Source: Clostridia bacterium (lineage in GTDB: Bacteria > Bacillota > Clostridia > RGIG6154). From it: DNA of 44,533 nt. Location of the stretch: contig JAGAJK010000055.1 in the NCBI GenBank assembly GCA_017626145.1, forward strand, positions 1-44,533, given 5' to 3'. The notes under the pieces were generated by a model that had not been told where the DNA came from, did no database searches, and saw only the letters and a list, made by a program, of their open reading frames with translations. Made by a program: the position numbers and the translations under genes. Within the stretch, counting starts at the first letter, position 1. The number at the start of each line of letters is the position of its first letter. Positions 1 to 21,748 of this stretch are shown piece after piece.

Positions 1-75
1 GAATGGCTGACAGTCTTGATTGCGGATGCGAAATCCAAGGGACTGTACGTCAGACCATTTCATCTCTTATTATAA
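1..75 (+). CDS. Possible 3' end of an upstream gene (partial)
   Basis: Frame 1 is open from the window edge to a TAA at 73-75 and would encode 24 residues ending LYVRPFHLLL. No family is recognisable from so little. The only support is the open frame and the stem-loop with a T-rich tail that follows directly at about 80-130, as expected for a gene end. It may be chance. Confidence 0.35.
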   Translation, partial: EWLTVLIADAKSKGLYVRPFHLLL

Positions 76-79
76 AAAA

Positions 80-130
80 ATAAGTGCAAGTAATCAACTA
101 CATTAATAGTTAATTTGCTTACACTTTTAT
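80..130 (+). terminator. Imperfect stem-loop, probable terminator of the upstream gene
   Basis: The arms around AAGTGCAAGTAA (82-93) and TTGCTTACACTT (115-126) can pair with a few mismatches or wobbles, and TTTTATT follows. It lies just after the stop at 75. Confidence 0.5.
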
Positions 131-137
131 TGTACCA

Positions 138-172
138 GGGACTGTAAAAAATCATCGATTTTTTACAGTCCC
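138..172. repeat. 35-bp near-perfect palindrome, terminator-like (copy 1)
   Basis: The arms are GGGACTGTAAAAAATC and its complement around a tiny centre, followed by CCTTTTTATG, so it can act as an intrinsic terminator. Bases 139-171 are the exact reverse complement of 33178-33210, which makes this a dispersed element as well as a hairpin. Confidence 0.7.
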
Positions 173-189
173 TTTTTATGTGCTTTATA

Positions 190-218
190 TTGACTTATTT
201 GTCGAAAAATGATAAAAT
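190..218 (+). promoter_or_regulatory. Sigma-A-type promoter for the 258 gene
   Basis: TTGACT (190-195), a 17-bp spacer and TAAAAT (213-218), 40 bp upstream of the start codon at 258. Confidence 0.6.
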
Positions 219-257
219 GACGGTGAAATGAAATTTTATAAACGGAGGTAGTTTAAA

Positions 258-689
258 ATGTTCAGTAACATCGGAGGAAAAATTAAAACAGTTGCCGCTA
301 TTGTGGCATGGGTAGGCATTATCGCATCTGTTGTAAGTGGTTTTATCTGTATAGCAGTTGATGATGACCTTATTTTAGTAGGCTTACTTATTGCAGTAGT
401 AGGCTCACTTATCTCATGGGTTTCATCTTTTGTGTTGTACGGATACGGTCAGCTTATTCAGAACACCGACAAAATGGTAGGTAACGTATACAACGATAAG
501 CAGCCAATGGGCGGTTATCAGACAGGTATGCCTGTAAATAATGCACCTGTAAATAATGCACCTGTTAATAACGCACCGGCAGTAGACCCAAGATTCGAAA
601 GCCTTAAGAGACTCAGAGAACAGGGTGTAATCACAGATGAAGAGTTTCAGCAGAAAATGGCTGAAATATGGGAGAACAAAAATGCTTAA
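258..689 (+). CDS. Small membrane protein with C-terminal SHOCT-like domain
   Basis: 143 residues of unknown function. Two hydrophobic segments at about 10-33 and 38-60 look membrane-spanning. They are followed by a polar linker with three PVNNA repeats (about 92-106) and a C-terminal stretch of about 30 residues (LKRLREQGVITDEEF) with the pattern of the short C-terminal SHOCT domain, which in many bacterial proteins ends an otherwise unrelated membrane protein. AACGGAGG ends 9 bases before the ATG and supports the start. The next gene starts inside this one (8-bp overlap) and also ends in a SHOCT-like domain, so the two are probably translationally coupled and may act together. A role for SHOCT in oligomerisation or regulation is only a suggestion in the literature. 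Confidence 0.75.
   Translation: MFSNIGGKIKTVAAIVAWVGIIASVVSGFICIAVDDDLILVGLLIAVVGSLISWVSSFVLYGYGQLIQNTDKMVGNVYNDKQPMGGYQTGMPVNNAPVNNAPVNNAPAVDPRFESLKRLREQGVITDEEFQQKMAEIWENKNA
531..575 (+). repeat. Three tandem 15-bp units inside the coding sequence
   Basis: Three near-identical units CCTGTAAATAATGCA at 531-545, 546-560 and 561-575 (the third has two silent changes) encode PVNNA three times in the linker between the membrane part and the C-terminal domain. The unit number may vary between strains. Confidence 0.85.
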
Positions 690-1389
690 CACAAAATATC
701 AGAATTCAGTTATTTTACTTATAGTCGGCACAGTTCTTGTTGTGTTGGGCAGATTGTTGATTGGAGCAAGCTTCGGCTTAAACTTAACGCAGCTTATATG
801 GCTTGTTTTCGGAGTTGCGTTTAACGTTCTTTTCTTTTTATATCTTTATAAGTATGAGAACACAGCGAATAAAAATTTATTCTTTCAGATTGCTTTTTAT
901 GTAAATGCAGGAATAGCATTTTTAGATGTGGCTCTTGTCAGGGGAGTAGGAATGATGGCAATACTTCTGATGGTTGCAGAGGTTGCCGGTAGCTGTCTTG
1001 TTGCTATTTTCGGTCTTAAAAGAGATAAGAATGTAAGAATTGCATTTTTTGCACTGGCAGTTATGATAATTCTTGAGGTTTTATCAAATCTCAGCATACT
1101 CAGAATATTAGTTCAGGGCTATAGCTGGGGTGTTGCAAGTGCGTTTTTATGGGTAGGCGGACTTCTCGGAAAAATTGCGGCATTTCTTTACATTATGCCA
1201 ATGGCAATGCCGTATCTTACCAATATGTTTAATTCGGCTTCTTTCGGAGCAGGTCAGGTAAACAATCAGCCTGATATGAGAATGACTTACGAACAGATGC
1301 TTGTTTCTTTGAAACAGCAGTATGACAGCGGTCTTATAAGTCCTGCAGAATACGAAGCAAGAAAAACTGAAATTTTAAAGATGCTTTAA
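682..1389 (+). CDS. Polytopic membrane protein with C-terminal SHOCT-like domain
   Basis: 235 residues from the ATG at 682, chosen because GGGAG at 670-674 sits correctly in front of it; an in-frame start at 637 would lie deep inside the preceding gene. About six or seven hydrophobic segments fill residues 10-190. A polar tail contains YEQMLVSLKQQYDSGLISPA, again a SHOCT-like helical pair. The membrane part is not recognisable. It overlaps the previous gene by 8 bp and is followed by a strong terminator, so the two form a bicistronic unit. Function unknown; the shared C-terminal domain suggests the pair interact or are regulated in the same way. Confidence 0.75.
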   Translation: MLNTKYQNSVILLIVGTVLVVLGRLLIGASFGLNLTQLIWLVFGVAFNVLFFLYLYKYENTANKNLFFQIAFYVNAGIAFLDVALVRGVGMMAILLMVAEVAGSCLVAIFGLKRDKNVRIAFFALAVMIILEVLSNLSILRILVQGYSWGVASAFLWVGGLLGKIAAFLYIMPMAMPYLTNMFNSASFGAGQVNNQPDMRMTYEQMLVSLKQQYDSGLISPAEYEARKTEILKML

Positions 1390-1400
1390 TTAAATAAAAT

Positions 1401-1446
1401 AAGTGTTGTGTGACAGAGTTCAAGTCACATAACACTTGTTTTTTTT
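1401..1446 (+). terminator. Intrinsic terminator of the SHOCT gene pair
   Basis: Perfect 14-bp stem AAGTGTTGTGTGAC (1401-1414) with GTCACATAACACTT (1424-1437), followed by an almost unbroken T tract to 1446. Confidence 0.92.
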
Positions 1447-1464
1447 ATGCATTTATGGTAAAAT
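1436..1464 (+). promoter_or_regulatory. Possible promoter of the polysaccharide locus
   Basis: TTGTTT (1436-1441), a 17-bp spacer and TAAAAT (1459-1464) lie 33 bp before the first gene of the locus. The -35 overlaps the terminator T tract, so this is tentative. Confidence 0.4.
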
Positions 1465-1496
1465 ATATTATGTAGAATTATATTTAAGAGGATTAA

Positions 1497-2276
1497 ATGA
1501 TGAAAGAAAATTTCCAGAATTTTTATAAATACAGATATCTGTTATTTGACCTTGTTATAAAAGATTTAAAAATAAAATACCGACGTTCGGTTTTGGGTTT
1601 TGCGTGGAGCATATTAAATCCGCTTTTAATGATGGTTGTAATAACAGCAGTTTTTCAGAATGTATTTAAAAGTAATATCGAAAATTTTCCTGTTTACTAT
1701 TTAACGGGTTATTTGTTCTTTTCATTTTTGACGGAAGCGACAAACATGTCAATGCGCTCTGTTATGGGAGCAGCATCTTTAATTAAAAAAGTATATATAC
1801 CCAAATACCTGTTTCCGCTGGAAAAATGCATATTCTGTTTTGTTAATATGCTTCTTTCCTTTGTGGCAGTAATAATTGTTATGCTGGTTTTAAGAGTACC
1901 TATAACACCAACCTTTTTTGCGTTTCCCATACCAATGCTTTATTTATTTGTATTTACCGTAGGTCTCAGCTTATTTTTGGCAGCGGCAAATGTGTTTTTC
2001 AGAGATATCGAGCATTTATACGGAGTATTTACTACAGCCTGGATGTATCTTACGCCCATATTCTATCCCATGGAAATGCTTCCGGATTTTATGACAAATG
2101 TTTTAAGGTTTAATCCTCTTTATCATTATGTTTTATATTTCAGAGCGATAGTTTTAGGCAACCATATGCCGGATTTACATTCAAATCTTGTTTGTATGGG
2201 ATTTTCACTTATAATGCTTATTATAGGAATAGCATTCTTTAAAAAGAAACAAGATAAATTTATTTTATATATTTAG
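1497..2276 (+). CDS. ABC-2 type polysaccharide export permease (Wzm/TagG family)
   Basis: 259 residues with six hydrophobic segments and the N-terminal signature RRSVLGFAWSILNPLLMMVV typical of Wzm/TagG/RfbA-type permeases, which with an ATPase export completed, lipid-linked polysaccharide or teichoic acid chains across the cytoplasmic membrane. The C-terminal PMEMLPDFMTNVLRFNPLYH region is also characteristic. Two adjacent ATGs (1497 and 1500) follow AGAGGA at 1487-1492; either could be used. The partner ATPase begins 9 bp downstream. The rest of the locus encodes sugar transferases and dTDP-sugar synthesis, so the cargo is a surface glycan rather than a small molecule. Confidence 0.9.
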   Translation: MMKENFQNFYKYRYLLFDLVIKDLKIKYRRSVLGFAWSILNPLLMMVVITAVFQNVFKSNIENFPVYYLTGYLFFSFLTEATNMSMRSVMGAASLIKKVYIPKYLFPLEKCIFCFVNMLLSFVAVIIVMLVLRVPITPTFFAFPIPMLYLFVFTVGLSLFLAAANVFFRDIEHLYGVFTTAWMYLTPIFYPMEMLPDFMTNVLRFNPLYHYVLYFRAIVLGNHMPDLHSNLVCMGFSLIMLIIGIAFFKKKQDKFILYI

Positions 2277-2285
2277 GAGCATAAT

Positions 2286-3017
2286 ATGGAAAATATTGCA
2301 GTTTCCGTTAAAAATGTAACAATGAAATTCAATATGTCCAAGGAAAAGGTGGACAATATAAAAGAGTATATTGTAAAGCTGTTGAAAAGACAGCTTATGT
2401 ATACCGAGTTTACAGCACTTGATGACATATCCTTTGATGTTAAAAAGGGAGAGGTGTTCGGTATTGTAGGACTGAACGGTTCGGGGAAAAGCACAACTCT
2501 TAAAATAGTTTCAGGCATACTTAAACCAACAAAAGGGTCAGTGCAGGTTTTTGGAACCATATCCCCGCTAATTGAGCTTGGTGCAGGCTTCGACCACGAT
2601 TTAACCGCAAGAGAGAATATATTTTTAAACGGTTATGTTTTAGGCTACAGTAAGGATTATATAAAAGAAAAATTCGATTCTATAGTGGAATTTTCCGAGC
2701 TTGAAGAATTTTTGGATGTTCCGATTAAGAATTTTTCATCCGGTATGATTGCACGCTTGGGTTTTGCTATTGCAACTGTAGTAAGACCCGATATTCTGAT
2801 AGTTGATGAAATTTTATCGGTAGGAGATTATAAGTTCCAGGAAAAATGTGAAAAAAGAATTGCCGATATGATGGCAGGCGGAACAACGGTTATAATAGTA
2901 TCCCATTCAATTGAGCAGATTCAAAGACTTTGCGACCGTGTCCTCTGGCTTGAAAAAGGCAAGATGAAAGAGCTTGGCGAAGCAGAATATGTATGCGGAA
3001 AATATAAGAATCAATAA
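2286..3017 (+). CDS. ABC transporter ATPase for polysaccharide export (Wzt/TagH family)
   Basis: 243 residues. Walker A GLNGSGKST is at about 62-70, the signature region NFSSGMIARLGFA is of the Wzt/TagH kind, Walker B DILIVDEILSVGD follows, and the switch histidine is in IIVSHS. The long first loop before the Walker A motif (MSKEKVDNIKEYIVKLLKRQ) is typical of this family. It powers export by the permease encoded just upstream. The protein stops soon after the nucleotide-binding domain, so it lacks the C-terminal carbohydrate-binding domain that gives some Wzt proteins substrate-modification specificity; it resembles the short form that does not read a chain-end cap. Confidence 0.92.
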   Translation: MENIAVSVKNVTMKFNMSKEKVDNIKEYIVKLLKRQLMYTEFTALDDISFDVKKGEVFGIVGLNGSGKSTTLKIVSGILKPTKGSVQVFGTISPLIELGAGFDHDLTARENIFLNGYVLGYSKDYIKEKFDSIVEFSELEEFLDVPIKNFSSGMIARLGFAIATVVRPDILIVDEILSVGDYKFQEKCEKRIADMMAGGTTVIIVSHSIEQIQRLCDRVLWLEKGKMKELGEAEYVCGKYKNQ

Positions 3018-3034
3018 ACTTTAAGGTGAACTGT

Positions 3035-6000
3035 ATGTTTAATAAATTTAAAATAAAAAGGATATCCCGGATAATAAACCGATACAATGCATTTAATGAA
3101 CACATTTATCTTGATAAAGCCGGGGCAGAAATATTTGCAGAAAACTCGTTGGAGCATTTTGTAAAGAACGGAAATAATTACTCAATAAGCCCTAACAATA
3201 GATTTGATATGTATTACTATCTTTACCATAATCCGGATGTAAAGAATAATGGTATCAATGGCCTTTATCACTATATTACAAAGGGATTTTATGAAGATAG
3301 AAAACCAGAGGAAAATCCGAATTATTTCTTTTGGTGGTCAAAACTTTCGAAATCAAGAAAAGGTATTTTCAAAAATATAAGATTTATTGTTGATTGTGCA
3401 GCGATATATAAAAGCAAGGCATTTGACAGTATGTATTATTGTGATGTATATCCTGATGTGGCTAAGGTTGTTCAGTCAAAACGTGCATGGAAGTACAGAG
3501 ACAGTTCATTTATGCCACTTCGGTTTGCGGCAAAGGTATTGACTTCACCTATACCGCATTATGTAAAGTATGGCGCATATGAAGGAAGAAAGCCAAACAG
3601 AAATTTTGATACAAGATATTATATCAACAGATATAGTGATGTAAGACTTTCAAAAATGAATCCGTATGTGCATTTTATTAAATACGGTGAAAAAGAAGGC
3701 AGAGCTTCTTTGGAAGTTCAAAATAATGATTATAATACAGCGCAGGATTTGTTCAATGTTAATGAATTTATTAATAAAATGCCTTCCTGCGATAAAATTT
3801 CTAAAGTAAGTGTTGTTTTTGCAGTAAGTAAGAATATGCCTTTGAGCAAAAGAAGACTTAACGAAATTTTAAAGCAGAAAAATACGGAATTTGAAATATT
3901 TATAGCAGTTGATGCAACTGTTCCCGAAAAAGACAGAATGCAGTTAATTGATTTGAAGAATACACATAGTCGAATAAAAGAAATTTTTGAAGAAGCAACT
4001 ATGTCTGTAGCTTTAGAGAAGACTTTTGAAACATTGACAGGCGAATTTTATGTTCTCAACTGCAGTGAAACAATATATAGCAATACTTTTTTGTCATATG
4101 GAACAAAAGCATTTAAAAACAGTGCAATAACAGCTGTTAAAGCGACAGATGAGTGTGCAGAAAAGTTTGTATACGATAAAAAAATTATACATAATACAGA
4201 GAGCTTAATAAATAGAGATGAAGAGATTTCAGCATATATTTTTAAGAACAGAAAGGGAAATTTCTATTTAAACGATATAACTTCACGTTACGGAAGAGTT
4301 AATTTTATTCTTGATAATCTATTAGGTGGAGCTTACTGTGAAGTAAGTGCAACAGAGACTCTTGTGGAAAAAATAAACGTTATTTGCCCGGATGAAATAA
4401 TAAACTTACAGCAACATAAGCGTATGGTTGAAAATTTGTACAATAATTTTCACATTCCGGCAATAACAGCCAGGAAAATCTACGAGAACGCGAGAACCGA
4501 ATATTTGGCTGCAACAAAATGTTCTGTTTCAAAATTTGCGGAGAGTTATGATTTTGCAGAAATTTTGAAAAAAGGACAAGTTCCTGTGGTAATGGTATCT
4601 CTGGTTGCTTTTACTCATGGCGGTGGCGAAATAATGCCTATCAGAATAGCAAACTATCTGAAAAAAATCGGAGTTAATGTTGTAGTACACAATTACGGGT
4701 ATGCTGAAGATGAGCCAAAAGTAAGAGAAATGCTTGACAGCTCAATTAATGTAATAACTACAAATAACATGAAAGAAATGTCGGCATATTTACGTATTCT
4801 GAATGTGGACGTTATAAACACTCATCATGTAAGCAACCAGATGCTTGTAGGTGAAGTTTTTTTTGCTGACGAGTATATTAAAAAACGGGTATCGCACGTA
4901 GGTACTCAGCACGGAATGTACGAGGCGTTTGATGAGAAAGCATTCGATTATATATCTAAGTTTCTTGAAACAAACGTAGATATGTGGACATATGTTGCCG
5001 AGAAAAACATAGTACCATTTGAAAAAAAAGATAATTTTGACAGAGCAATGTTTGTAAAGACACCTAACGGCGTTGAAGAAAGCTTTGATGATAGTATTAC
5101 AAGAGAAAGCTTAGGTATAGATAAAGACGCTTTTATTTTATGTCTTGCCAGTCGAGCTATTAAAGCAAAGGGATGGAAAGAAGCTATTGATGCGACAACA
5201 ATCGCAAGGAAAGAGTCGGGTAAAAATATAGTCCTTATTTTAATAGGTGAGGGAGAAGTTTATGATGAACTAAACGGTAAAACACCTGATTATGTAAAAC
5301 TTATGGGTTTTTCAGACAAAGTGCAGAGCTTCTATGCAATAAGCGATATGACGGTGTTGCCTTCTTATTATAAGAGTGAAAGTGCGCCGCTTACTATTAT
5401 TGAGTCTTTGGTCGCAGGAACCCCCGTTGTAAGTTCGGATATAGGTGAAATCCGCTCTATGATAGAATATGAAAATACTTGTGCAGGTGAATGCTTTACT
5501 CTTGAAAACGGAAAAGTAAACGTAGAGAAACTGGCAAGAATAATTGTATCCTTCACAGAAGATGAAAATAAGTATAAAGAGGCAAAACAGGCAGCAGAAA
5601 AATATGGCATTCGCTTCAATATGAAAAATGTCGTTTGCGAATACATGAAAATATACAATAAAAGCCTTAAATACACCCCAATAGATGAAAGTGAGATTAA
5701 AAAAGTTCAAAGTAGCTTGTCGCTTTTGGAAAGTTCGGAAAACAAGTGGAGCAGCACGTTGGTTTCGGTCATTGTTCCTTGCTATAACCACGAAAAATAT
5801 CTGAAAAAACGTTTGGACAGTATTTATAACCAGACTTACAAAAATTTTGAAGTTATATTAATGGATGATTGCTCAAGAGACTCAAGCCGAAAGATTATGG
5901 AGGAATACGCTCAAACATATAAAGATAAAACGACAGTTTTATTTAACGAGGTAAATTCCGGCGGAGTATTCAGACAGTGGTCAAAAGGAATAAAGGCGGC

Positions 6001-7792
6001 AAAGGGAAGAATTTGCTGGATTGCAGAATCGGACGATTACTGTGATTATAATTTCATAGAAAAATTAATTCCTGCTTTCGATGACGGAAAAGTTAAAATT
6101 TCATATTCTAATTATGTGTTTGTAGATGTTGATGAAGAGCCGTTAAAAAATTTTACTTTCGAAAATTATTTAGAATGCGTAGGCGGTGAAAAATGGAAAG
6201 CTTCTTATGTGAAAGATTCCAACGATGAGGTTAAAGAAGGGTTAGGCGTAATTAACACCATTCCGAATGTTTCAGCTGCATTGTTTGTAAATCCTAATGC
6301 ACAACCGATACTTGAAGATGAAAAATGGCTTTCTATGCGTTTGTGCGGAGACTGGATGTTTTATTTGAACATCATCAGGGATGGAAAAGTGAGCTTTGAG
6401 ACGGAAACTAATAATTATTATAGAATTCATAATAACAGTACTTCAAAAACAGTCCAGTTAACTGAAAATTATTATAAAGAACATACAATCATTTCAAAAT
6501 TAGTATCGGAATTATATGATATAGAAGATGACCTGATAAAACAGCATGAAAATATATTAAAATTTGAGTATGAATATTTGTCGAAGAAACCTGAAAAATC
6601 ATTCGGGGAAATGTTCAACCTCGAGGAATTAATAAGATATAACAGAAAAAAGAAAGAAATAAGGGCGAAAGAATTTTGTGATAATAAATCAGCCGAAAGC
6701 ACCATGAAAGAAAAACCTGTGGTTATTGCTTCGGGAGTTAAGCTTAAATCTACAGCCGATACATTTGAGACGAAAATCAGAGATGTGGGATATAACACGG
6801 GCAATATGATGTTTGTTAATGCACTTAACGAACAGCTTGATGTTAAAAAAATTGACTTCTATCATCCTGAACTCTTTAAAGATGAAAGAGATGTAAGCTG
6901 TGTAATTCCTTCTGCTAATTTTATAATTTGCGGAGAAGCGATAGAGGACGATGGAATTAAGTTTATGGAAGGAACAGAATTTCCAATAACTCTTGCCGGT
7001 TTGGGGGCTCAGGCAGATGCAAGGAACAATACCCCGAAAGCCCTTGTAGAATCACTTAATCCTGAAAAAATCAAATTTTTCAAAATGGCATCACAGAGAG
7101 CTGTATCATTAGGTATAAGAGGTTCCTTTACCGCAGAATGTCTGGAGATTATGGGTATTAAGAATTACCGTATTATAGGTTGTCCGTCTTTTTATAAGCA
7201 TATGGATGGTGTTTTGCCGGAATTTAAAACTCCATCATCGAAAAAGACAATAATGACTGTAACAAGCGGTAACCGTTTTGAAAGCAATCTTGTAAAATTC
7301 GGTTATGAAAATAACAGTGATTGGATCATGCAAATGACAGCGGAATTGCCTTATATAGAAACAGGCGAAATTCAATATTCACAACAAGAGATTGAACGTG
7401 CATTTCCGAATCTTAAAATTAACAAGAAAATGCTGGAATACATGAAAAATCACAGACGCTTGTTTTTTAACATTGATGAATGGAACGAGTATCTTGAAGC
7501 GGGAGAATTTACATTTGCTTATGGCAGTCGCTTTCATGGCAATATAAATGCTTTTAATCATGGAATACCAACACTTTGGATAACGCATGACAGCAGAACG
7601 AAAGAGTTGGCGGAAGCTTTGTATCTTCCGCATATTACGGTTCATCAATTTAATTCTGTAAGCAATATGGAACAATTGATAGAATATTGTAATTATGAGG
7701 AAACAATCAAGCATTATCCTGAATTATTGAGTAATTACAAGCAGTTTCTTAAAGAAAACGGTTTGAAATTAAACCCAAAATACAATATGTAG
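3035..7792 (+). CDS. Giant multi-domain glycosyltransferase with C-terminal polysaccharide pyruvyl transferase-like domain
   Basis: 1585 residues from ATG 3035 (AAGGTG at 3023-3028; an in-frame GTG at 3026 overlaps that site). Modules in order: residues about 20-225 carry three copies of a DxxYYxxxxxDV ... HYxxxGxxEGR repeat known from bacterial glycosyltransferases; about 255-420 a GT2-like fold fragment without a clear DxD, probably degenerate; about 516-870 a GT4-like (GT-B) domain with an EX7E motif (ESAPLTIIE, 782-790); about 908-1170 a GT2 domain starting VSVIVPCYNHEKYLKKR with DD at 944-945 and ESDD at 999-1002; about 1226-1585 a polysaccharide pyruvyl transferase-like domain ending YGSRFHGN near 1496. 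It probably assembles several linkages of the exported glycan and may pyruvylate or otherwise modify it. Acceptor and donor sugars cannot be read from sequence. Such large fused transferases occur elsewhere, but this combination is uncommon. Confidence 0.85.
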   Translation: MFNKFKIKRISRIINRYNAFNEHIYLDKAGAEIFAENSLEHFVKNGNNYSISPNNRFDMYYYLYHNPDVKNNGINGLYHYITKGFYEDRKPEENPNYFFWWSKLSKSRKGIFKNIRFIVDCAAIYKSKAFDSMYYCDVYPDVAKVVQSKRAWKYRDSSFMPLRFAAKVLTSPIPHYVKYGAYEGRKPNRNFDTRYYINRYSDVRLSKMNPYVHFIKYGEKEGRASLEVQNNDYNTAQDLFNVNEFINKMPSCDKISKVSVVFAVSKNMPLSKRRLNEILKQKNTEFEIFIAVDATVPEKDRMQLIDLKNTHSRIKEIFEEATMSVALEKTFETLTGEFYVLNCSETIYSNTFLSYGTKAFKNSAITAVKATDECAEKFVYDKKIIHNTESLINRDEEISAYIFKNRKGNFYLNDITSRYGRVNFILDNLLGGAYCEVSATETLVEKINVICPDEIINLQQHKRMVENLYNNFHIPAITARKIYENARTEYLAATKCSVSKFAESYDFAEILKKGQVPVVMVSLVAFTHGGGEIMPIRIANYLKKIGVNVVVHNYGYAEDEPKVREMLDSSINVITTNNMKEMSAYLRILNVDVINTHHVSNQMLVGEVFFADEYIKKRVSHVGTQHGMYEAFDEKAFDYISKFLETNVDMWTYVAEKNIVPFEKKDNFDRAMFVKTPNGVEESFDDSITRESLGIDKDAFILCLASRAIKAKGWKEAIDATTIARKESGKNIVLILIGEGEVYDELNGKTPDYVKLMGFSDKVQSFYAISDMTVLPSYYKSESAPLTIIESLVAGTPVVSSDIGEIRSMIEYENTCAGECFTLENGKVNVEKLARIIVSFTEDENKYKEAKQAAEKYGIRFNMKNVVCEYMKIYNKSLKYTPIDESEIKKVQSSLSLLESSENKWSSTLVSVIVPCYNHEKYLKKRLDSIYNQTYKNFEVILMDDCSRDSSRKIMEEYAQTYKDKTTVLFNEVNSGGVFRQWSKGIKAAKGRICWIAESDDYCDYNFIEKLIPAFDDGKVKISYSNYVFVDVDEEPLKNFTFENYLECVGGEKWKASYVKDSNDEVKEGLGVINTIPNVSAALFVNPNAQPILEDEKWLSMRLCGDWMFYLNIIRDGKVSFETETNNYYRIHNNSTSKTVQLTENYYKEHTIISKLVSELYDIEDDLIKQHENILKFEYEYLSKKPEKSFGEMFNLEELIRYNRKKKEIRAKEFCDNKSAESTMKEKPVVIASGVKLKSTADTFETKIRDVGYNTGNMMFVNALNEQLDVKKIDFYHPELFKDERDVSCVIPSANFIICGEAIEDDGIKFMEGTEFPITLAGLGAQADARNNTPKALVESLNPEKIKFFKMASQRAVSLGIRGSFTAECLEIMGIKNYRIIGCPSFYKHMDGVLPEFKTPSSKKTIMTVTSGNRFESNLVKFGYENNSDWIMQMTAELPYIETGEIQYSQQEIERAFPNLKINKKMLEYMKNHRRLFFNIDEWNEYLEAGEFTFAYGSRFHGNINAFNHGIPTLWITHDSRTKELAEALYLPHITVHQFNSVSNMEQLIEYCNYEETIKHYPELLSNYKQFLKENGLKLNPKYNM

Positions 7793-7813
7793 TAATAGAA
7801 AGGGAAATTTGTT

Positions 7814-8686
7814 ATGAAAGGTATAATTTTAGCAGGCGGAAAGGGAACAAGACTTTATCCGATAACAAAATCAGTTTCAAAACAGCTTCTTCCTATCTAT
7901 GATAAACCCCTTATTTACTATCCTATGTCAATTCTTATGCTTGCAGGAATAAAGGACATACTGGTAATTTCAACTCCTGTTGATATTTCATCATATGAAA
8001 ACCTTTTAGGTGATGGTAAAAAATTAGGAATTAATATAAGCTATGCGGTGCAGAGTGAACCTAAAGGGTTGGCAGAAGCGTTTATTATAGGCGAAGAATT
8101 TATAGGAACGGACGATGTATGTCTTATTTTGGGTGATAATGTTTTTTACGGACAGAGTTTTTCCAATACACTCAGGGAAGCCCGTGAAAGCTTGCAGAAG
8201 GATGGAGCTGTAATTTTCGGGTATCCCGTAAGTAATCCTGCTGCATTTGGTGTTGTTGAGTTTGATGGTGACGGAAACGTTCTTTCCATTGAAGAAAAAC
8301 CGGTACATCCGAAATCCAAATTTGCAGTTCCGGGACTTTACTTTTACTCAAACAATGTAATCGAAATTGCCAAAAATGTTAAACCGTCTGCTCGTGGAGA
8401 GCTTGAAATAACAGCTGTTAATAATGACTATCTAAATGCAGGAAAATTAAAAGTTGAATTAATGGGCAGAGGTCTTGCATGGCTTGATACAGGAAGTCCC
8501 GATGGAATGCTTAAAGCAAGTATGTTTGTTGAAACGGTTCAACAAAGACAAGGCTACTACATATCCTGTCTTGAAGAAATTGCATGGCGCAGAGGTTTCA
8601 TTGACGATAAGCAATTAAAAGCTTTAGGTGAAGAATTAAAGATGACAGATTATGGTAAATATATACTTGGACTTTTGGAGGAATGA
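7814..8686 (+). CDS. rmlA: Glucose-1-phosphate thymidylyltransferase
   Basis: 290 residues, the normal RmlA length. It makes dTDP-glucose from glucose 1-phosphate and dTTP, the first step to dTDP-6-deoxysugars. The N-terminal nucleotide-binding loop [20 protein letters not shown] and the following DKPLIYYP are diagnostic; ILGDNVFYG and EEKP follow in the expected order, and GLAWLDTGS is present near the C-terminus. It starts after AAAGGG at about 7799-7804, 21 bp behind the giant transferase gene, and its stop overlaps the region of the rmlB start, so both enzymes are made together. Also called rfbA. Confidence 0.96.
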
Positions 8687-8688
8687 AA

Positions 8689-9708
8689 ATGAAATTATTG
8701 GTAACAGGCGGTGCTGGTTTTATAGGCAGTAATTTTATTTATTATATACTTGATAAATATACCGGCGATGAGGTTGTATGTATTGATGTACTTACCTATG
8801 CCGGCAATTATTCAACTCTTGAAGAAGCGGTTAAGAATAAAAACTTTAAATTCGTAAAGGGCGATATAACAGACAGACAATTGGTAAATGAGCTTTTTGA
8901 AGCAGAAAAGTTTGATGCGGTTGTAAATTTCGCCGCAGAAAGCCATGTTGACCGTTCTATTGAAAATCCCGAAGTGTTTTTGAAAACCAATATTTTAGGA
9001 ACTCAGGTTTTAATGGACGCCTGTTTAAAGTATGGTGTTAAAAGATATCATCAGGTTTCAACGGACGAGGTGTACGGTGATTTGCCTCTTGACAGACCCG
9101 ACCTTTTGTTTACTGAAACTACACCAATTAAAACTTCAAGTCCGTATTCGGCATCAAAAGCATCGGCGGATTTGCTGGTTTTGGCTTATCACAGAACATT
9201 TGGACTGAACGCAACAATTTCACGTTGCTCAAATAACTACGGACCATATCATTTTCCTGAAAAATTAATACCTTTAATGATTATAAATGTGTTAAACAAC
9301 AAACCTCTTCCCGTATACGGAAAAGGTGAGAATGTTCGTGACTGGCTTTACGTTACCGACCACTGCAGTGCCATTGATTTAATCGTAAGAAACGGCAGAG
9401 CCGGTGAGGTTTACAATGTGGGTGGCAATAATGAAAAAACCAACATCTTTATTGTTAAAACCATTATAAAGGAATTGGGAGCATCGGAGGATTTGATTAC
9501 TTATGTAACAGACCGTAAAGGCCACGACCTTCGCTATGCCATAGATTCAACCAAGATTCAGAATGAGCTTGGCTGGAAACCTCAAATTAACTTTGAGGAT
9601 GGCATTAAAAAAACAATAAAATGGTATCTTGACAATAAACCCTGGTGGGAAGAAATTGTAAGCGGAGAATATAAAAATTACTATGATAAAATGTATGGCA
9701 ACAGATAA
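8689..9708 (+). CDS. rmlB: dTDP-glucose 4,6-dehydratase
   Basis: 339 residues from ATG 8689. TGGAGG (8676-8681) lies 7 bases before this ATG but only one base before the ATG at 8683, so 8689 is preferred. It converts dTDP-glucose to dTDP-4-keto-6-deoxyglucose. The NAD-binding GGAGFIGSNF is at the N-terminus; STDEVYGD holds the Thr-Asp-Glu catalytic triad partners and YSASK the catalytic Tyr and Lys. FAAESHVDRSI is typical of RmlB. No rmlC or rmlD is in the window, so the final sugar (L-rhamnose or another deoxysugar) depends on genes elsewhere. Confidence 0.96.
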   Translation: MKLLVTGGAGFIGSNFIYYILDKYTGDEVVCIDVLTYAGNYSTLEEAVKNKNFKFVKGDITDRQLVNELFEAEKFDAVVNFAAESHVDRSIENPEVFLKTNILGTQVLMDACLKYGVKRYHQVSTDEVYGDLPLDRPDLLFTETTPIKTSSPYSASKASADLLVLAYHRTFGLNATISRCSNNYGPYHFPEKLIPLMIINVLNNKPLPVYGKGENVRDWLYVTDHCSAIDLIVRNGRAGEVYNVGGNNEKTNIFIVKTIIKELGASEDLITYVTDRKGHDLRYAIDSTKIQNELGWKPQINFEDGIKKTIKWYLDNKPWWEEIVSGEYKNYYDKMYGNR

Positions 9709-9747
9709 ATTCTAAAGTCAAAGCAATATACTGCAAAGGATGATAAT

Positions 9748-10857
9748 ATGAAAGAACGCTCTTTGTTTTGGGACATTTTAAAAGGTATAGGTGTAATTTC
9801 TGTTGTTTTTGGACATTGTTGCCCACAATATGCGTATTATGTATATTCTTATCATTTGGCGTTGTTCTTTTTTGTAAGTGCATTCTTCTATAGTGAAAAG
9901 AAGTACCGTAACAATTTGTTTGGATATGTTGGAAATCTTTTCAAAAACAATTGGGTAAAATATGTATTTTACTCGGTGTTATTAATATTGTTCCATAATT
10001 TTATTGTCTGGAAATGCCTGGATGTTAGTGCGGTATATATCAGCTTCAAAGAAATTATTGAAAATATTTTACTATCTTTTATTTTTGTAGGCAGAGAGAG
10101 ATTTGCGGGCGCAATGTGGTTTGTGCTTCCAAATATGTTGGCATGTGGCTTTTTAGCGGGAATTGTAACTTTGTTTGACAGGGTAAGCTTGTTTATAACA
10201 GGCCGAGAGAAAAGAAAACTTATAAAAAATATTTTAATTGTTCTTTTTGCCTGTGTTGCAGCGGTAGTTTGTTTTGGAACTAAATTAATGTTCAATATTC
10301 AACTGAGCTTTATTGTTCTGCCTTTGTGTGTGTCAGCGTATTTTATAAGACAGTATATTGGATTTAAACCTGATAAATACTTAAAATGGTACATTGCGTT
10401 ACCATTTGCGGCTTTGTCATATGTACTTTTGGAAAAAGGCGTAAGAGTTGAACTGTCACAGAATATCGTGCCCGGAATATGGTTCTACATATTATCCTTC
10501 AGTGGGATATATGTCTGCATGTATCTGTCTAAACTTATTTCCCGAAATAAGGTAATTGGTAAACTTTTTGCCTTTTGTGGCGAAAAATCATTCTCTGTTA
10601 TGGCACTGCACTTTTTTGCAATCAAATTTTTTGACAGAATAGTAAATTTCGTAATAGGTGAGAAAAATCCTCAGATTATAGGAAGATGGGTTTGCAGTTA
10701 TCCTGAAAAACTTTGGCCCGCATATTTGATTGTAGGTACTGTTGCACCTGTAATATTTGCTTATCTGATAAACAAATTCAGAGTGTATGTTTGTAACAGA
10801 ATTGAAAAAAATCTGTCGGCTGCATCAACAAACCAACAGATGAATGATTTTTCTTAA
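9748..10857 (+). CDS. Membrane acyltransferase (acyltransferase 3 family)
   Basis: 369 residues with about ten hydrophobic segments. The N-terminus RSLFWDILKGIGVISVVFGH has the family's conserved arrangement with the putative catalytic histidine in the first membrane helix. Members O-acetylate or otherwise acylate surface polysaccharides and other extracytoplasmic substrates using acyl groups from the cytoplasm. Position at the end of a glycan export locus points to acylation of that glycan. The start has AAAGGA at 9735-9740. The gene runs 33 bp into the 3' end of the convergent glycosyltransferase gene and its terminator lies within that gene. Confidence 0.85.
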   Translation: MKERSLFWDILKGIGVISVVFGHCCPQYAYYVYSYHLALFFFVSAFFYSEKKYRNNLFGYVGNLFKNNWVKYVFYSVLLILFHNFIVWKCLDVSAVYISFKEIIENILLSFIFVGRERFAGAMWFVLPNMLACGFLAGIVTLFDRVSLFITGREKRKLIKNILIVLFACVAAVVCFGTKLMFNIQLSFIVLPLCVSAYFIRQYIGFKPDKYLKWYIALPFAALSYVLLEKGVRVELSQNIVPGIWFYILSFSGIYVCMYLSKLISRNKVIGKLFAFCGEKSFSVMALHFFAIKFFDRIVNFVIGEKNPQIIGRWVCSYPEKLWPAYLIVGTVAPVIFAYLINKFRVYVCNRIEKNLSAASTNQQMNDFS

Positions 10858-11718
10858 AAGTGAATGTTTGAAAAATCTGTACTTCACAATAGTACGGATT
10901 TTTTTAATTTTGGAGTAATTTTGTAAATTAATATATTCTTTAAGTAAAACTTTTTGATTTTCAGAAAGACGATTTTCAAAAGCAGAACAAAAATATTCTG
11001 TTTGATTATATGTTTTTAAAAGTGAGTTTTTAAGCTCAGAGTTTTTTCTGTATTTAAGTCCTTTTGCACCTACTTCGTTTTTTGAATGCTGACGATATTT
11101 AATTGTGGCTTCGTTTAAAAATTCGATTTTGCCAAAAGCAGAGGCGATTAAATAAAGCCACCAGTCGTGCATTATAACGTTCTCATTTGTGTCACCTGCA
11201 AGCTTTAAAAGTGCTTTGTTTACCATTATCGTACAGCCTGTAACGCAGTTTTGTACTATTGCTCTGTTTAATGCTGTTTCGTTTTTTATACGGCTTAATT
11301 TAAAGTAAGATGGATTTATAGTGTTCAAATTTTCATCAACAACGCACAAGTCTGTGTGAACTAAAACAGGAACATCTGTATTACCGTTTTCTGTTTCGAG
11401 CATTTTCTTAAAAGTCTTTTCAATTTTGTCAGAATGCCACACATCGTCCTGGTCGCAAAACATTATATATTCACTTTTGGAAAATTCTATAAGCTTAAAA
11501 AAATTACCTTTTGCACCAAGAGGAGATGAGGATTTTGAAAGGGTAATTTTGTCGGGATATTTTCCCTGATATTCTTTCAGAATTTCAAAGGTATTGTCGG
11601 TTGAGTTATCATCATTTATATACAGATGCCAGTCGGTAAGGGATTGAGAAAAGAGACTATCTATTTGTTCTTTAATGAATTTTTCACCGTTATATGTTGC
11701 CAGTAAAATATCGATCAA
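10825..11718 (-). CDS. Family 2 glycosyltransferase
   Basis: 297 residues from a TTG at 11718. GAGGTG (11730-11725 on the minus strand) lies 6 bases before it, whereas the GTG at 11727 is part of that ribosome site, so the TTG is preferred and gives the canonical N-terminus MIDILLATYNGEKFIKEQI. A GT-A fold is indicated by DDNSTDN and by CDQDDVWHSDKIEK, which supplies the metal-binding DxD-like acids. Rhamnosyl and galactosyl transferases of this type act on surface glycans in the cytoplasm. It is encoded opposite to the rest of the locus but probably serves the same glycan. Confidence 0.88.
   Translation of the reverse strand: MIDILLATYNGEKFIKEQIDSLFSQSLTDWHLYINDDNSTDNTFEILKEYQGKYPDKITLSKSSSPLGAKGNFFKLIEFSKSEYIMFCDQDDVWHSDKIEKTFKKMLETENGNTDVPVLVHTDLCVVDENLNTINPSYFKLSRIKNETALNRAIVQNCVTGCTIMVNKALLKLAGDTNENVIMHDWWLYLIASAFGKIEFLNEATIKYRQHSKNEVGAKGLKYRKNSELKNSLLKTYNQTEYFCSAFENRLSENQKVLLKEYINLQNYSKIKKIRTIVKYRFFKHSLLRKIIHLLVC
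10870..10906 (+). terminator. Terminator of the acyltransferase gene, inside the convergent gene
   Basis: AAAATCTGTACT pairs with AGTACGGATTTT around a short loop, followed by TTTTT. It begins about 13 bp after the stop at 10857 and lies in the coding region of the minus-strand glycosyltransferase. Confidence 0.75.
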
Positions 11719-11793
11719 AATTATCACCTCTGAAACAGTATAGCATCAAAGTTTAAAAAATACAATATTTTTAATAAAATCTTATCTAAACAC

Positions 11794-11822
11794 TTGAAAA
11801 ATACTTGAATTTTTGGTATTAT
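11794..11822 (+). promoter_or_regulatory. Promoter of the oxaloacetate decarboxylase operon
   Basis: TTGAAA (11794-11799), a 17-bp spacer and TATTAT (11817-11822), 78 bp before the first start codon. A second set, TTGAAT (11805-11810) with TATAAG (11827-11832) and 16-bp spacing, overlaps it. Confidence 0.6.
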
Positions 11823-11900
11823 ATGTTATAAGCGAAAGAATCGGTTTTTTCCGAAGAATATATATAACAATCGCATAATTTGTCAGAAGGAGGGTTAATT

Positions 11901-12176
11901 ATGTCAAGTGCATTTGTGTGTCTGCTTGGAATTGGCACCGTGTTTTTCGGACTTGTTTGTATAGTTGTTCTTTGCTATGTAATGAGTGCTCTTTGCAAAA
12001 TGTTCGGAAAAGAGGAAGCAGAAGCACCTAAAGCAGCGCCTGTTGCTCCTGCGGCAGTTAACAATGCAAAGGTTGAAAACAAGCAGGAAATTATTGCGGC
12101 AGTTGCCTGTGCTATTGCCGAGGAACTCGGAACTGATGTAGAAGGAATAAGAATCAAATCATTCAGAAAGCTTTAA
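11901..12176 (+). CDS. oadG: Na+-pumping decarboxylase gamma subunit (OadG type)
   Basis: 91 residues from ATG 11901, chosen because AAGGAGG at 11887-11893 is correctly spaced. One hydrophobic helix (about 5-33) is followed by an acidic, Ala/Pro-rich linker and a small C-terminal domain ending GIRIKSFRKL, as in clostridial OadG proteins. The subunit anchors and assembles the soluble alpha subunit and biotin carrier on the membrane-bound beta subunit. It is the first gene of a gamma-carrier-beta-alpha operon. Confidence 0.88.
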   Translation: MSSAFVCLLGIGTVFFGLVCIVVLCYVMSALCKMFGKEEAEAPKAAPVAPAAVNNAKVENKQEIIAAVACAIAEELGTDVEGIRIKSFRKL

Positions 12177-12194
12177 TTTTAGGAGGAATTTATA

Positions 12195-12539
12195 ATGAAA
12201 AAGTATAAGGTTAATGTAAACGGAACAGTTTATGAAGTGGAAATTGAAGAAATGTCTGCAAGCCAGGCAGCAAGCGTTGCATCAGCTCCTGCAGCAGCAC
12301 CTGCAGCTCCTGCTGCAAGCGGTGAAGGTGAAGCAGTTACTGCTCCGATGCCGGGTACTATTTTAAGTGTTAATGTTAATACAGGCGACAGTGTTAAAAA
12401 GGGTCAGGTTCTTATGATTTTAGAAGCTATGAAAATGGAAAATGAAATCATGGCAAGTTGTGACGGTGTTGTAACATCTGTTTCTGTAACAAAGGGAACA
12501 GCTGTTCAGTCAGGCGACGTATTGTGCACAATTAAATAA
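12195..12539 (+). CDS. Biotin carboxyl carrier subunit of the Na+-pumping decarboxylase
   Basis: 114 residues. A short N-terminal strand region (MKKYKVNVNGTVYEVEI) is followed by a flexible Ala/Pro linker (about 28-46) and a biotinyl domain with EAMKMENEI; Lys80 is the biotin site. The carrier shuttles the carboxyl group between the alpha-subunit transferase site and the membrane beta subunit. It corresponds to the C-terminal domain of longer OadA proteins or to the separate MmdC/GcdC carriers. GGAGG precedes the ATG, and the gene sits 18 bp after oadG. Confidence 0.95.
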   Translation: MKKYKVNVNGTVYEVEIEEMSASQAASVASAPAAAPAAPAASGEGEAVTAPMPGTILSVNVNTGDSVKKGQVLMILEAMKMENEIMASCDGVVTSVSVTKGTAVQSGDVLCTIK

Positions 12540-12559
12540 TTTGATAGGGGTAATTACTC

Positions 12560-14284
12560 ATGACAAAAAGAATTTTTGCACTTCTTTTGGCAGTTGTAAT
12601 GCTTTGTGCGTGTGCTTTAACGTGCTTTGCTGCTCCTGCAGATAAAGAAGAAAATGTTATACAAATTAAGGGTTATTCTTATGATAAAGCAAAAGAAACT
12701 CTTACTTTGACAGTTGTAAACACATCCGGTAAAAATATCGTAAATTCGGTGCTTGTGCTTGATACCAATGATAAAGCTGTTACATTAAAAGATGCAGCTG
12801 TAAACGAATCAGGCAACACAGGTGCGGTTTTAGGCGGATTAAAAGCAGGCGAGCAGAAGGATGTAATTTTTAAAGTTGCAATAGCAGATTATAATAAATT
12901 TGCCGAAGCAAAAAAAATGCCTGTTGTTAATGCTTTTGCAAACTATATTTTAGAAACTGAAGAAGTTTATGCACAGGGTTCTGAAGAGAGTGAGCAGGTT
13001 TTATCGATTGAATACAATGATATATTAAAGACAGAAACCACATCAACAACTCAGGCGATTATGAACTTTGTTAAACAAACAGGTTTTTCAAAATTAGCAA
13101 GCGGTTGGGATACTGTTATAATGGTTTTGGTAGCATGCTTACTTTTGTATCTTGCCATTGTAAAGAAGTTTGAACCATTGTTGCTTTTACCTATAGCATT
13201 CGGTATGCTTCTTACAAACCTGATTGGCGCAGGAGTTTACCATGAAGAGCTTTTTGCCGGCGGCCATATTCACTGGGATATGTTTTCAAACGGAATACCT
13301 TTAGCAAACGGAACAACAGAAGCTCCCGGTCTTGTTGATATTTTATATCTTGGTGTAAAACTCGGCGTTTATCCGTGTCTTATTTTTATCGGTGTAGGCG
13401 CAATGACAGACTTTGGCCCGCTTATTGCAAATCCAAAGAGCCTTCTTTTGGGCGCGGCAGCACAGCTTGGTATTTTCCTTACATTTTTAGGTGTAAAAGA
13501 GATTTTCCCATTGGTTATATCAAATCTTCCTGAACTTCTTGACGGAACAGTACTTGAAAATCTTGCAGCATCGGTTGGTATTATCGGCGGCGCGGACGGT
13601 CCTACTGCAATTTTCGTTACATCGAAGCTTGCACCTAATTTCTTAGGACCTATAGCTGTTGCGGCTTATTCATATATGGCACTTGTTCCTGTAATTCAGC
13701 CACCTATTATGAAGCTTCTTACAACAAAGAAGGAAAGAACTATAGTTATGAAAACTCTTCGTCCTGTTTCAAAAACAGAAAAGATTTTATTCCCGATTGT
13801 TGTAACAATTTTCGTTGCATGGCTTGTTCCATCAGCGGCACCATTGGTAGGTTCACTTATGCTTGGTAACCTTATTAAAGAATCAGGCGTTTGCGAAAGA
13901 CTTTCAAAGACAGTTCAGAATGAACTTATGAATATTGTAACAGTATTTTTAGGAGTTTCTGTAGGTGCAACAGCAACTGCAAGCACATTCCTTTCACCCC
14001 TTACACTTTGCATAATTGCTATGGGTATCGTAGCCTTTGGTGTAGGTACAGCAGGCGGTGTATTACTTGCTAAATTCATGAACTTGTTCTTAAAGAACAA
14101 GATTAATCCTTTAATCGGCAGTGCAGGCGTATCTGCAGTACCTATGGCAGCAAGAGTTTCACAGAAAGTTGGTCAGGATGAAAATCCTTCAAACTTCCTT
14201 CTTATGCACGCTATGGGACCAAACGTTGCAGGTGTTATCGGTTCTGCAATCGCAGCAGGTGTTCTCCTTGCATTATTCGCTTAA
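12560..14284 (+). CDS. oadB: Na+-translocating decarboxylase beta subunit with exported N-terminal extension
   Basis: 574 residues, about 160 longer than canonical OadB. Residues 1-25 form a signal peptide ([20 protein letters not shown]); about 30-160 form a polar, beta-rich domain of unknown family; from about 164 the protein aligns by eye with normal OadB ([20 protein letters not shown]). The essential [10 protein letters not shown] motif is at 343-352, with Asp346 matching the Na+-site aspartate of the family, and [15 protein letters not shown] follows. The channel decarboxylates carboxybiotin and exports Na+. The extension would lie outside the cell. The start has only AGGGGT nearby, but the signal peptide supports it. 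Confidence 0.92.
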
Positions 14285-14305
14285 TTTTCAGAAAGGAGCT
14301 AATTT

Positions 14306-15736
14306 ATGTCTAAAGTATTTATAACAGATACAATTCTCCGTGACGCACATCAGTCGCAGGCGGCTACAAGAATGAAGCTTGAAGATATGCTTCCGGCTTG
14401 TGAAATTCTTGATAAAGCAGGCTACTGGTCATTGGAATGCTGGGGCGGAGCAACCTTCGACTCATGTATGAGATTTTTAAACGAAGACCCATGGGAAAGA
14501 TTAAGAACTTTAAAAAAGGCAATGCCTAACACAAAATTGCAGATGCTTTTCCGTGGTCAGAATATCTTAGGCTACAAGCATTATGCAGATGATGTTGTTG
14601 AACAGTTCTGCAAAAAGTCAATTGAAAACGGTATTGATGTAGTAAGAATTTTTGATGCTTTAAATGACCCGAGAAACTTAGAAGCAGCAGTTAAGTTTGT
14701 TAAAGAATACGGCGGTATGTGTGAAACAGCCATTTCCTACACAGTAAGCCCTGTTCATAACGAAGACTATTTTGTTAAGCTTGCAATGCAGCTTGAAAAA
14801 ATGGGTGCAGATACAATCTGTATCAAGGATATGGCAAACCTTCTTCTTCCTTACGATGCGTACAGCCTCGTTAAGAAATTAAAGGAAAATGTTGGTGTTC
14901 CTATCCACCTTCATACCCATAACACCGCAGGTACAGGGGATATGACAAACTTAATGGCAATCGAGGCAGGTGTTGATATTGTTGACTGTGCTTTGTCACC
15001 AATGGCAAACGGTACATCAAACCCATCAACAGAAAGCTTAGTTGCAACATTAAAGGGAACAGACAAAGATACAGGTATCGACCTTGACCTTCTTAGTAAG
15101 GCGGCTGCTCACTTCAGAGGTATTGCAACAAAATTAAAAGAAGAAGGAACCTTGAATCCAAAGGTTTTAAATGTTGATTCAAATACACTTCTTTATCAGG
15201 TCCCCGGAGGTATGCTTTCCAATCTTTTAAATCAGCTTAAGGAAGCAAATGCCGAAGATAAGTACTATGATGTATTGGCAGAAGTGCCGAGAGTAAGAGA
15301 AGACTTCGGTTATCCTCCACTTGTAACACCAACAAGCCAGATTGTAGGTACTCAGGCTGTTTTAAACGTTATCTCAGGCGAAAGATATAAGATGATAACA
15401 AAGGAATCAAAGGGACTTCTAAAGGGCGAATACGGTCAGCTTCCTGCTCCCGTAAACGAAGAAGTAAGAAAGAAAGCAATCGGTGACGATGAGGTTATTA
15501 CCTGCCGTCCTGCCGATTTGATTGAACCTGAGCTTCCAAAATACAGAGAAGAAACAAAGGGCATTGCAAAATCTGAGGAAGATGTTTTAAGCTATGCACT
15601 CTTCCCGCAGGTTGCATCAAAGTTCTTTGATTTAAGAGACGGTCGTGTTCAGGCACCAAAAGCAGAAACTCCCAAAGCTCCAGCTAAAGTTGATGCAAAC
15701 GGTGTAAGAACTTTGATAGTTGAAGATTTATCATAA
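14306..15736 (+). CDS. oadA: Oxaloacetate decarboxylase alpha subunit (carboxyltransferase)
   Basis: 476 residues. It moves the carboxyl group of oxaloacetate to biotin, giving pyruvate. ITDTILRDAHQSQAATRM is the OadA/pyruvate carboxylase signature and separates it from CoA-dependent methylmalonyl- or glutaconyl-CoA decarboxylases. Predicted metal-site residues are Asp13, carboxylated Lys174 (IKDMANLL), His203 and His205 (HLHTHNTAGTGD). The PYC/OADA association domain spans about 290-460. The biotin domain found at the C-terminus of longer homologues is absent, its role being filled by the separate carrier gene in this operon. AGAAAGGAG precedes the ATG; a strong terminator follows. Confidence 0.95.
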   Translation: MSKVFITDTILRDAHQSQAATRMKLEDMLPACEILDKAGYWSLECWGGATFDSCMRFLNEDPWERLRTLKKAMPNTKLQMLFRGQNILGYKHYADDVVEQFCKKSIENGIDVVRIFDALNDPRNLEAAVKFVKEYGGMCETAISYTVSPVHNEDYFVKLAMQLEKMGADTICIKDMANLLLPYDAYSLVKKLKENVGVPIHLHTHNTAGTGDMTNLMAIEAGVDIVDCALSPMANGTSNPSTESLVATLKGTDKDTGIDLDLLSKAAAHFRGIATKLKEEGTLNPKVLNVDSNTLLYQVPGGMLSNLLNQLKEANAEDKYYDVLAEVPRVREDFGYPPLVTPTSQIVGTQAVLNVISGERYKMITKESKGLLKGEYGQLPAPVNEEVRKKAIGDDEVITCRPADLIEPELPKYREETKGIAKSEEDVLSYALFPQVASKFFDLRDGRVQAPKAETPKAPAKVDANGVRTLIVEDLS

Positions 15737-15770
15737 AATCAAAGCGGTGGCTAAAGCCACCGCTTTGATT
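15737..15770. terminator. Bidirectional terminator between oadA and the small minus-strand gene
   Basis: Perfect 15-bp stem: AATCAAAGCGGTGGC (15737-15751) and GCCACCGCTTTGATT (15756-15770) with a 4-base loop; T-rich sequence follows on both strands (TTCTATTT, and GATTTTAT on the minus strand). Confidence 0.9.
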
Positions 15771-15941
15771 CTATTTATTGTTTTTGAAGAAATCTTCTAT
15801 TATACTGATTACTATATTATTAAAGCTTGTATCGTGCTTTTGAGCAAGTTCGGTTATTTTTTCGGAAAGTTCATCTGTAATATAAAGTGTTTTGTATCCC
15901 GCTTTGACTTTTTGTTTTGTCTGTTTTGGAGTAAATGCCAT
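15771..15941 (-). CDS. Small ribbon-helix-helix (Arc/CopG-like) DNA-binding protein
   Basis: 56 residues, MAFTPKQTKQKV... ending EDFFKNNK. The order is a basic arm, a short strand (YKTLYI), helix one (DELSEKITELAQKHDT) and helix two (FNNIVISIIEDFFKN), which is the ribbon-helix-helix plan; the pattern of a Ser/Thr-Phe-Asn turn then a hydrophobic helix fits. Such proteins bind DNA as dimers and are often antitoxins or local repressors. The ribosome site AGGTG lies 5-6 bases before the ATG at 15941. A partial palindrome just upstream could be its own operator. No toxin gene follows: the terminator at 15737-15770 comes directly after the stop. Confidence 0.72.
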   Translation of the reverse strand: MAFTPKQTKQKVKAGYKTLYITDELSEKITELAQKHDTSFNNIVISIIEDFFKNNK

Positions 15942-15952
15942 ATAATCACCTA

Positions 15953-15979
15953 CATATAATTTATTATAATTATTATATG
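15953..15979. promoter_or_regulatory. Possible operator upstream of the ribbon-helix-helix gene
   Basis: CATATAAT (15953-15960) and ATTATATG (15972-15979) are perfect inverted arms separated by 11 bases, in the 5' region of the small regulator gene. The AT-rich context makes chance possible. Confidence 0.3.
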
Positions 15980-16015
15980 ATAAAATTTAATTTTAAAATA
16001 TATTAGAAAAATCTG

Positions 16016-16044
16016 TTGTAATTTTATAATATATGTGTTATTAT
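16016..16044 (+). promoter_or_regulatory. Probable promoter of the 16061 gene
   Basis: TTGTAA (16016-16021), a 17-bp spacer and TATTAT (16039-16044), ending 16 bp before the ATG at 16061, so the leader would be very short. Confidence 0.45.
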
Positions 16045-16060
16045 ATAAAAGGTGATTGAA

Positions 16061-16312
16061 ATGAATATTAAACTTGAATTATTAAGAGAATCAATAATGG
16101 AAGGAATATCAAACTCTATATACACAGCACTTAAATATGCTGAGATAGATGTTGAACCTTCTGTAAATTCATTAGCGGTAAAGGCTTTGTCAGAAATAAG
16201 AGGAATTATTATAAACCAGGAAATATCAGAAGATTTTGATGTTGTAGAGAAGATTATTGAAGTTTTGGAAAAATACAATATATATGCAGGAGACCGCCAC
16301 AGTCATTTCTGA
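16061..16312 (+). CDS. Small acidic helical protein, function unknown
   Basis: 83 residues from ATG 16061, with AAAGGTG at 16048-16054; an upstream in-frame GTG at 16052 is part of that ribosome site. The protein is predicted helical (KLELLRESIMEGISNSIYTA), has no membrane segment, and ends with RHSHF encoded inside the terminator stem. It resembles small clostridial hypothetical proteins that end in a His/Asp-Phe tail, but I cannot name a family. It is divergent from the ribbon-helix-helix gene, sharing a 119-bp regulatory region. Confidence 0.65.
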   Translation: MNIKLELLRESIMEGISNSIYTALKYAEIDVEPSVNSLAVKALSEIRGIIINQEISEDFDVVEKIIEVLEKYNIYAGDRHSHF

Positions 16313-17057: not shown

Positions 17058-17068
17058 TTTGTGTCCTT

Positions 17069-21743: not shown

Positions 21744-21748
21744 TGAAA

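Follow-up and report, generated by a model that had tools for sequence, protein, structure and literature searches.

Organization of the locus

The window, that is, the whole 44,533-nucleotide stretch of DNA analyzed here, contains at positions 3035–7792 of the + strand a single gene for a multi-module transferase of 1585 amino acids. Its reading frame is uninterrupted from the ATG at 3035 to the stop codon ending at 7792. A candidate Shine-Dalgarno sequence (AGGTGA) lies 5 nt upstream of this ATG; no Shine-Dalgarno match was found for the GTG at 3026, an earlier possible start.

The gene sits between those of an ABC exporter and a group formed by rmlA, rmlB, and an acyltransferase gene, all on the + strand and separated by short gaps. 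Upstream are an ABC-2 permease (1497–2276; PF01061), with a weak match to the model of the galactan exporter Wzm, and an ATPase of 243 aa (2286–3017); the exporter that an earlier note on this DNA had placed next to the gene is therefore present. In the ATPase, Pfam gave no match to the cap-binding, C-terminal carbohydrate-binding domain of Wzt (Wzt_C). Downstream are RmlA, a glucose-1-phosphate thymidylyltransferase (7814–8686; TIGR01207, above cut-off), RmlB, a dTDP-glucose 4,6-dehydratase (8683–9708; TIGR01181, above cut-off), and an acyltransferase-3 membrane protein (9748–10,857; PF01757), followed on the opposite strand by a further GT2 found by Pfam (10,825–11,727). A gene of the rmlC type is present in the genome, away from this locus.

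Elsewhere in the window, a 15-bp tandem repeat occurs three times at 531–577, near the gene of a SHOCT-domain protein. Genes for a biotin carrier, OAD beta, and PYC_OADA at 12,195–15,736 look like a sodium-pumping decarboxylase set, and at 16,329–33,063 an apparent glycan-use region holds genes for GH2, GH35, an arabinofuranosidase, a sugar isomerase-like protein, and AraC/histidine kinase proteins.

Modules of the N-terminal three-quarters of the protein

From its N terminus, the protein consists of repeats, a degenerate GT2-like module, a GT4 module, a GT2 module, and a PS_pyruv_trans domain (PF04230). The last four had been listed in the earlier note, and that inventory was borne out by Pfam for GT4, the second GT2, and PF04230, and by hhalign for the first GT2. 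The repeats, which the note did not mention, occupy residues 1–240 (3035–3754, +), where three copies of the pattern YY..P.DV...HY...G..E.R begin at residues 60, 134, and 195. By blastp, this region is also found in giant glycosyltransferase proteins of proteobacteria (E values of 3e-12 to 9e-19), the matched proteins being from E. coli, Paracoccus, Bradyrhizobium, Roseovarius, Ruegeria, Acuticoccus, and Phaeobacter.

Assignment of residues 255–420 (3797–4294, +) to a GT2-like (GT-A) module is based on hhalign and on motif alignment. Pfam showed nothing above its cut-off in residues 241–500, and hhalign matched the same residues to the GT2 profile with 87% probability (P = 3.6e-6, 106 columns), compared with 0.4% for the 240 N-terminal residues used as a control. 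A single-sequence model of residues 231–508 reached a pLDDT of only 36. Because NCSET stands at the aligned DxD position (about residues 342–346) and the DxD motif is lost, the module was rightly called degenerate.

The two following modules are better preserved in their motifs, and both were delimited by Pfam, by motifs, and by comparison with a relative encoded on an E. coli plasmid. The GT4-type module covers residues 500–885 (4532–5689, +), with Glycos_transf_1 at 688–856 (78 bits against a cut-off of 26.4), an intact EX7E motif (ESAPLTIIE, 782–790), and the segment SRAIKAKGW at 706–714. In the second GT2, at residues 907–1175 (5753–6559, +), Glycos_transf_2 was matched at 911–1035 (113 bits against 23.3), the DxD region is intact (ESDDY, within 995–1002), and the aspartate of GDW (1105–1107) is, from the sequence, the likely candidate for the catalytic base. 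The end of this module and the linker to the next domain lie within residues 1176–1225 (6560–6709, +), the linker being, by sequence, about 50 residues long or less.

The C-terminal domain keeps the pyruvyl transferase fold but not the aspartate of the known enzymes

Sequence and predicted structure agree that the C-terminal domain, residues 1226–1585 (6710–7789, +), is a member of the PF04230 superfamily. Pfam placed PS_pyruv_trans at residues 1340–1520 (40.5 bits, cut-off 25.3), and an AlphaFold model built from an alignment of 40 sequences showed a GT-B fold with a pLDDT of 87.9. When the model was ranked over 999 solved chains and re-aligned, the first match was 6x1l (Z 13.9, 219 residues aligned, 3.9 Å), which is WbbZ (PMC10629545), and the second was 5ax7, which is Pvg1p (Z 13.8, 250 aligned, 4.2 Å). 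These are the two solved ketal-pyruvyltransferases, in agreement with the fold named in the earlier note. Many other GT-B chains follow closely at Z 11–13, however, and therefore the fold alone leaves the function undecided. A search of PDB sequences with the small C-terminal alignment gave insignificant matches only, among them 5ax7 at an E value of 1.6.

The motifs identified in the domain are NTGN (1254–1257), RGSFT (1362–1366), GCPS (1382–1385), and RFH (1499–1501). Known and candidate ketal-pyruvyltransferases have few motifs in common, namely NxGD, RxxxS/T, and a histidine (PMC10629545). The second of these, which includes R217 of Pvg1p and R148 of CsaB, is found here as RGSFT, and RFH corresponds to the R.H residues R337/H339 of Pvg1p and R306/H308 of CsaB (PMC10435577). 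NxGD, which is present in Pvg1p (as D106), CsaB, WbbZ, and WcfO, was not found; NTGN stands in its place.

This substitution characterizes a whole subfamily, since NxGN is present in 39 of the 40 aligned members (for the fortieth, a pattern search of the corresponding stretch gave no motif) and likewise in the PF04230 copies of Ruegeria and Bradyrhizobium, whereas the CsaB-type proteins of the same class carry NxGD wherever the motif could be read. Further features of the NxGN subfamily are RG..T in place of RD..S and a GCPS segment that is largely invariant across the alignment. The subfamily is sparse, its profile matching in 6 of 391 class genomes, and it is named pyruvyl transferase in databases, yet it is without the aspartate of the characterized enzymes.

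Transfer of a ketal-pyruvyl group by the domain is plausible. It is unproven, because the Asp that is needed in Pvg1p, where the D106A mutation nearly abolishes activity (PMC4872226), is replaced by Asn in this domain and in almost all of its close relatives. This observation, together with the changes that are specific to the subfamily, gives some weight to another explanation: that the fold has been kept by proteins that are not ketal-pyruvyltransferases, and that use another donor or acceptor chemistry or only bind glycan. We regard this as a real possibility, if not a probable one, since Arg and His are retained at their PEP positions, binding of the acceptor hydroxyl is still conceivable with an Asn, and the best fold matches, albeit by a small margin over other GT-B enzymes, are the two solved pyruvyltransferases. 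That NxGN proteins of PF04230 would make up a separate enzyme class with a different chemistry, here placed within a single chain that both assembles and finishes an ABC-exported glycan, is a bolder proposal, and we hold it to be rather unlikely.

Distribution of the fusion

The earlier note had considered the fusion of a PF04230 domain to glycosyltransferases unusual. In general it is not, because GT4 and PF04230 are commonly combined within this class in chains of about 750 aa, one of which is encoded in the genome of the window itself. PF04230 is present in 172 of 245 class genomes, and 84 of the 150 best matches listed lie in frames of 650–832 aa. In the two chains scanned, L048 and L138 (the latter from the window's own genome), Pfam confirmed both GT4 and PF04230, and several other long PF04230 frames open with GT4-like sequence. 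Some putative pyruvyltransferases are filed by CAZy under GT4 (PMC6801904). A different fusion, of the NxGN domain to Glyphos_transf in a chain of 1187 aa, was found in a Lachnospiraceae MAG (L044/L070).

What stands of the note's claim is that the exact four-module order is unusual within the collections sampled. No chain of the same order was found when the full protein was compared with 99 relatives, 72,556 plasmid records, and 50,697 phage records, when the C-terminal part was compared with 391 class and 398 phylum genomes, or when the NxGN profile was run against the 391 class genomes. As such genome searches are samples, the absence of a second chain from them is not proof that there is none. 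A single-protein search of genome contigs gave no match, and an alignment-based search gave 56 loci. At these loci the frames that hold the matched domain are 289–568 aa long, with the exceptions of L070 (1189 aa) and of L106, for which no frame was assigned.

The neighbors of the NxGN-subfamily genes include no single constant partner. At loci such as L081 (10,308–12,224), L089 (3546–4277), and L093 (8814–10,283), neighbors resembling CysN, cytidylyltransferases of the IspD/TarI type, and sulfotransferases recur, these resemblances being judged from the starts of the sequences only.

Proposed role of the protein

We propose that the protein is probably a cytoplasmic enzyme of modular design, which builds a surface glycan that the neighboring ABC transporter exports. 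The GT4 and second GT2 modules would supply two of the sugars in a lipid-linked chain, and one of these sugars may be rhamnose, given that rmlA and rmlB are adjacent and that the genome has an rmlC-type gene at another site. The N-terminal repeats and the dead GT2 would serve as a scaffold or in acceptor binding, and the C-terminal domain would modify one sugar of the chain as it grows, by a reaction akin to PEP-dependent pyruvyl transfer. Such a chain would have arisen by fusion of modules that are separate neighboring genes in other bacteria.

Because the exporter ATPase is without a cap-binding domain, the C-terminal modification would be a decoration or a terminator, not an obligatory signal for export. 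The exporter of Klebsiella O1/O2a is also without this domain, and export there is coupled to chain extension, while in systems of the WbdD and WbbB types only terminated chains are exported (PMC11231755). The suggestion in the earlier note that one protein builds and caps the repeat unit thus goes beyond the evidence, as one of the three glycosyltransferase modules is without the metal motif, the C-terminal domain carries NxGN, and the exporter has no domain for binding a cap. As the fusion was seen in one genome only, conservation gives no support to a joint function of the modules.

It is also conceivable, although we doubt it, that the protein contributes individual linker or adapter sugars together with a decoration, and that polymerization is carried out by other enzymes of the genome. 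Candidates for that task are the additional GT2 on the other strand at 10,825–11,727 and, on contig C13 of this genome (10,476–17,182; L049), a separate cluster in which several GT2-like genes lie together with one GT4-like gene. Multi-glycosyltransferase chains beside an exporter, however, commonly polymerize ABC-exported glycans (PMC11231755), and the E. coli relative is placed in the same way, with an ABC exporter and rml genes next to it.

Finally, the fusion might be unreal or very recent, the product of an indel in an A-rich tract that linked a giant glycosyltransferase of some 1200 residues to a PF04230 gene, either in nature or during assembly. The sequence comes from one draft genome (95% complete, 98 contigs), no second genome in the samples searched has the same fusion, the two parts are separate genes in other bacteria, Met1224 lies at the start position of the stand-alone relatives, and an A6 tract occurs near the junction, at 6646. 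Nevertheless, we consider this origin very improbable, since the frame is open across the junction and encodes a linker-like peptide, the sequence demands no indel, Met1224 has no Shine-Dalgarno sequence upstream, and fusions of PF04230 to transferases exist in other genomes. The idea that out-of-frame stops before Met1224 mark the fossil end of a gene was rejected, given that this frame stops every 8.5 codons; as stops in the alternative frames are frequent along the whole gene, those near the junction are uninformative.

The protein offers a natural single-chain test case for the recombination of glycan-building modules and for their coupling to a chain-modifying step.

Comparison with known systems

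Giant glycosyltransferases of Proteobacteria were among the matches to the window protein in the plasmid records. Because the order of modules varies between these proteins, a full-length alignment of seven sequences was misaligned, and the modules were compared one by one with blastp instead. The E. coli relative, a giant of 1787 aa encoded on plasmid pKTa005_1 (WP_341857793.1), has the same N-terminal repeats, and the window protein is 49% identical to it in the second GT2 (over 298 aa) and 37% in the GT4 (over 385 aa). Its order, however, is sulfotransferase, repeats, WbsX, GT2, GT4, so that it carries a sulfotransferase and WbsX instead of the degenerate GT2 and PF04230, whereas in the window protein GT4 precedes the second GT2. 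The exporter ATPase of pKTa005_1 also differs from that of the window in having Wzt_C. This plasmid is conjugative, and its region 1–19,684 (L165), with rml genes, the ABC exporter, the giant, and cysD/cysN/cysC, looks like a cluster for a sulfated surface glycan.

Other giants present further combinations of the same parts. That of Roseovarius has the order repeats, GT2, GT4. In Ruegeria sp. PR1b, the giant of pSD20 (WP_169618092.1) shares the repeats and the GT4-type and GT2 modules with the window protein, but its GT2 is flanked by two GT4-type modules, and the NxGN protein of PF04230 (WP_169618094.1, 26% identical) is encoded by its own gene about 80 bp downstream. Bradyrhizobium likewise has an NxGN PF04230 gene downstream of that for a giant glycosyltransferase, with one small gene between them. 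At L051, which encodes the closest stand-alone PF04230 relative (40%), this gene directly follows a GT2 gene, and an ABC ATPase is part of the locus; the GT2 gene upstream of PF04230 (6895–7901) extends over two overlapping frames, which may reflect a frameshift. On these sequence comparisons, the window protein reads as another shuffled arrangement, in which modules that are separate neighboring genes in other bacteria are fused.

In the CsaB-type chains with GT4 and PF04230 (L048 and L138, about 750 aa), PF04230 is C-terminal as in the window protein, but there is only one glycosyltransferase, and L138 and the others that could be read have NxGD where the window has NxGN. In L044/L070 the PF04230 domain is N-terminal instead of C-terminal, and its partner is Glyphos_transf (PF04464). 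Parallels are found in Klebsiella, where ABC export, a chain of several glycosyltransferase modules, and an activity that ends the polymer occur together in WbbY/WbbZ of serotype O1 and in WbbB of O12. WbbY has two glycosyltransferase modules, and the pyruvyltransferase WbbZ terminates the chain (PMC10629545); WbbZ has its fold in common with the C-terminal domain described here, but has NxGD and is encoded as a protein of its own. WbbB carries its polymerase and terminator modules all on one chain (PMC11231755), but terminates with Kdo and is built from other glycosyltransferase families.
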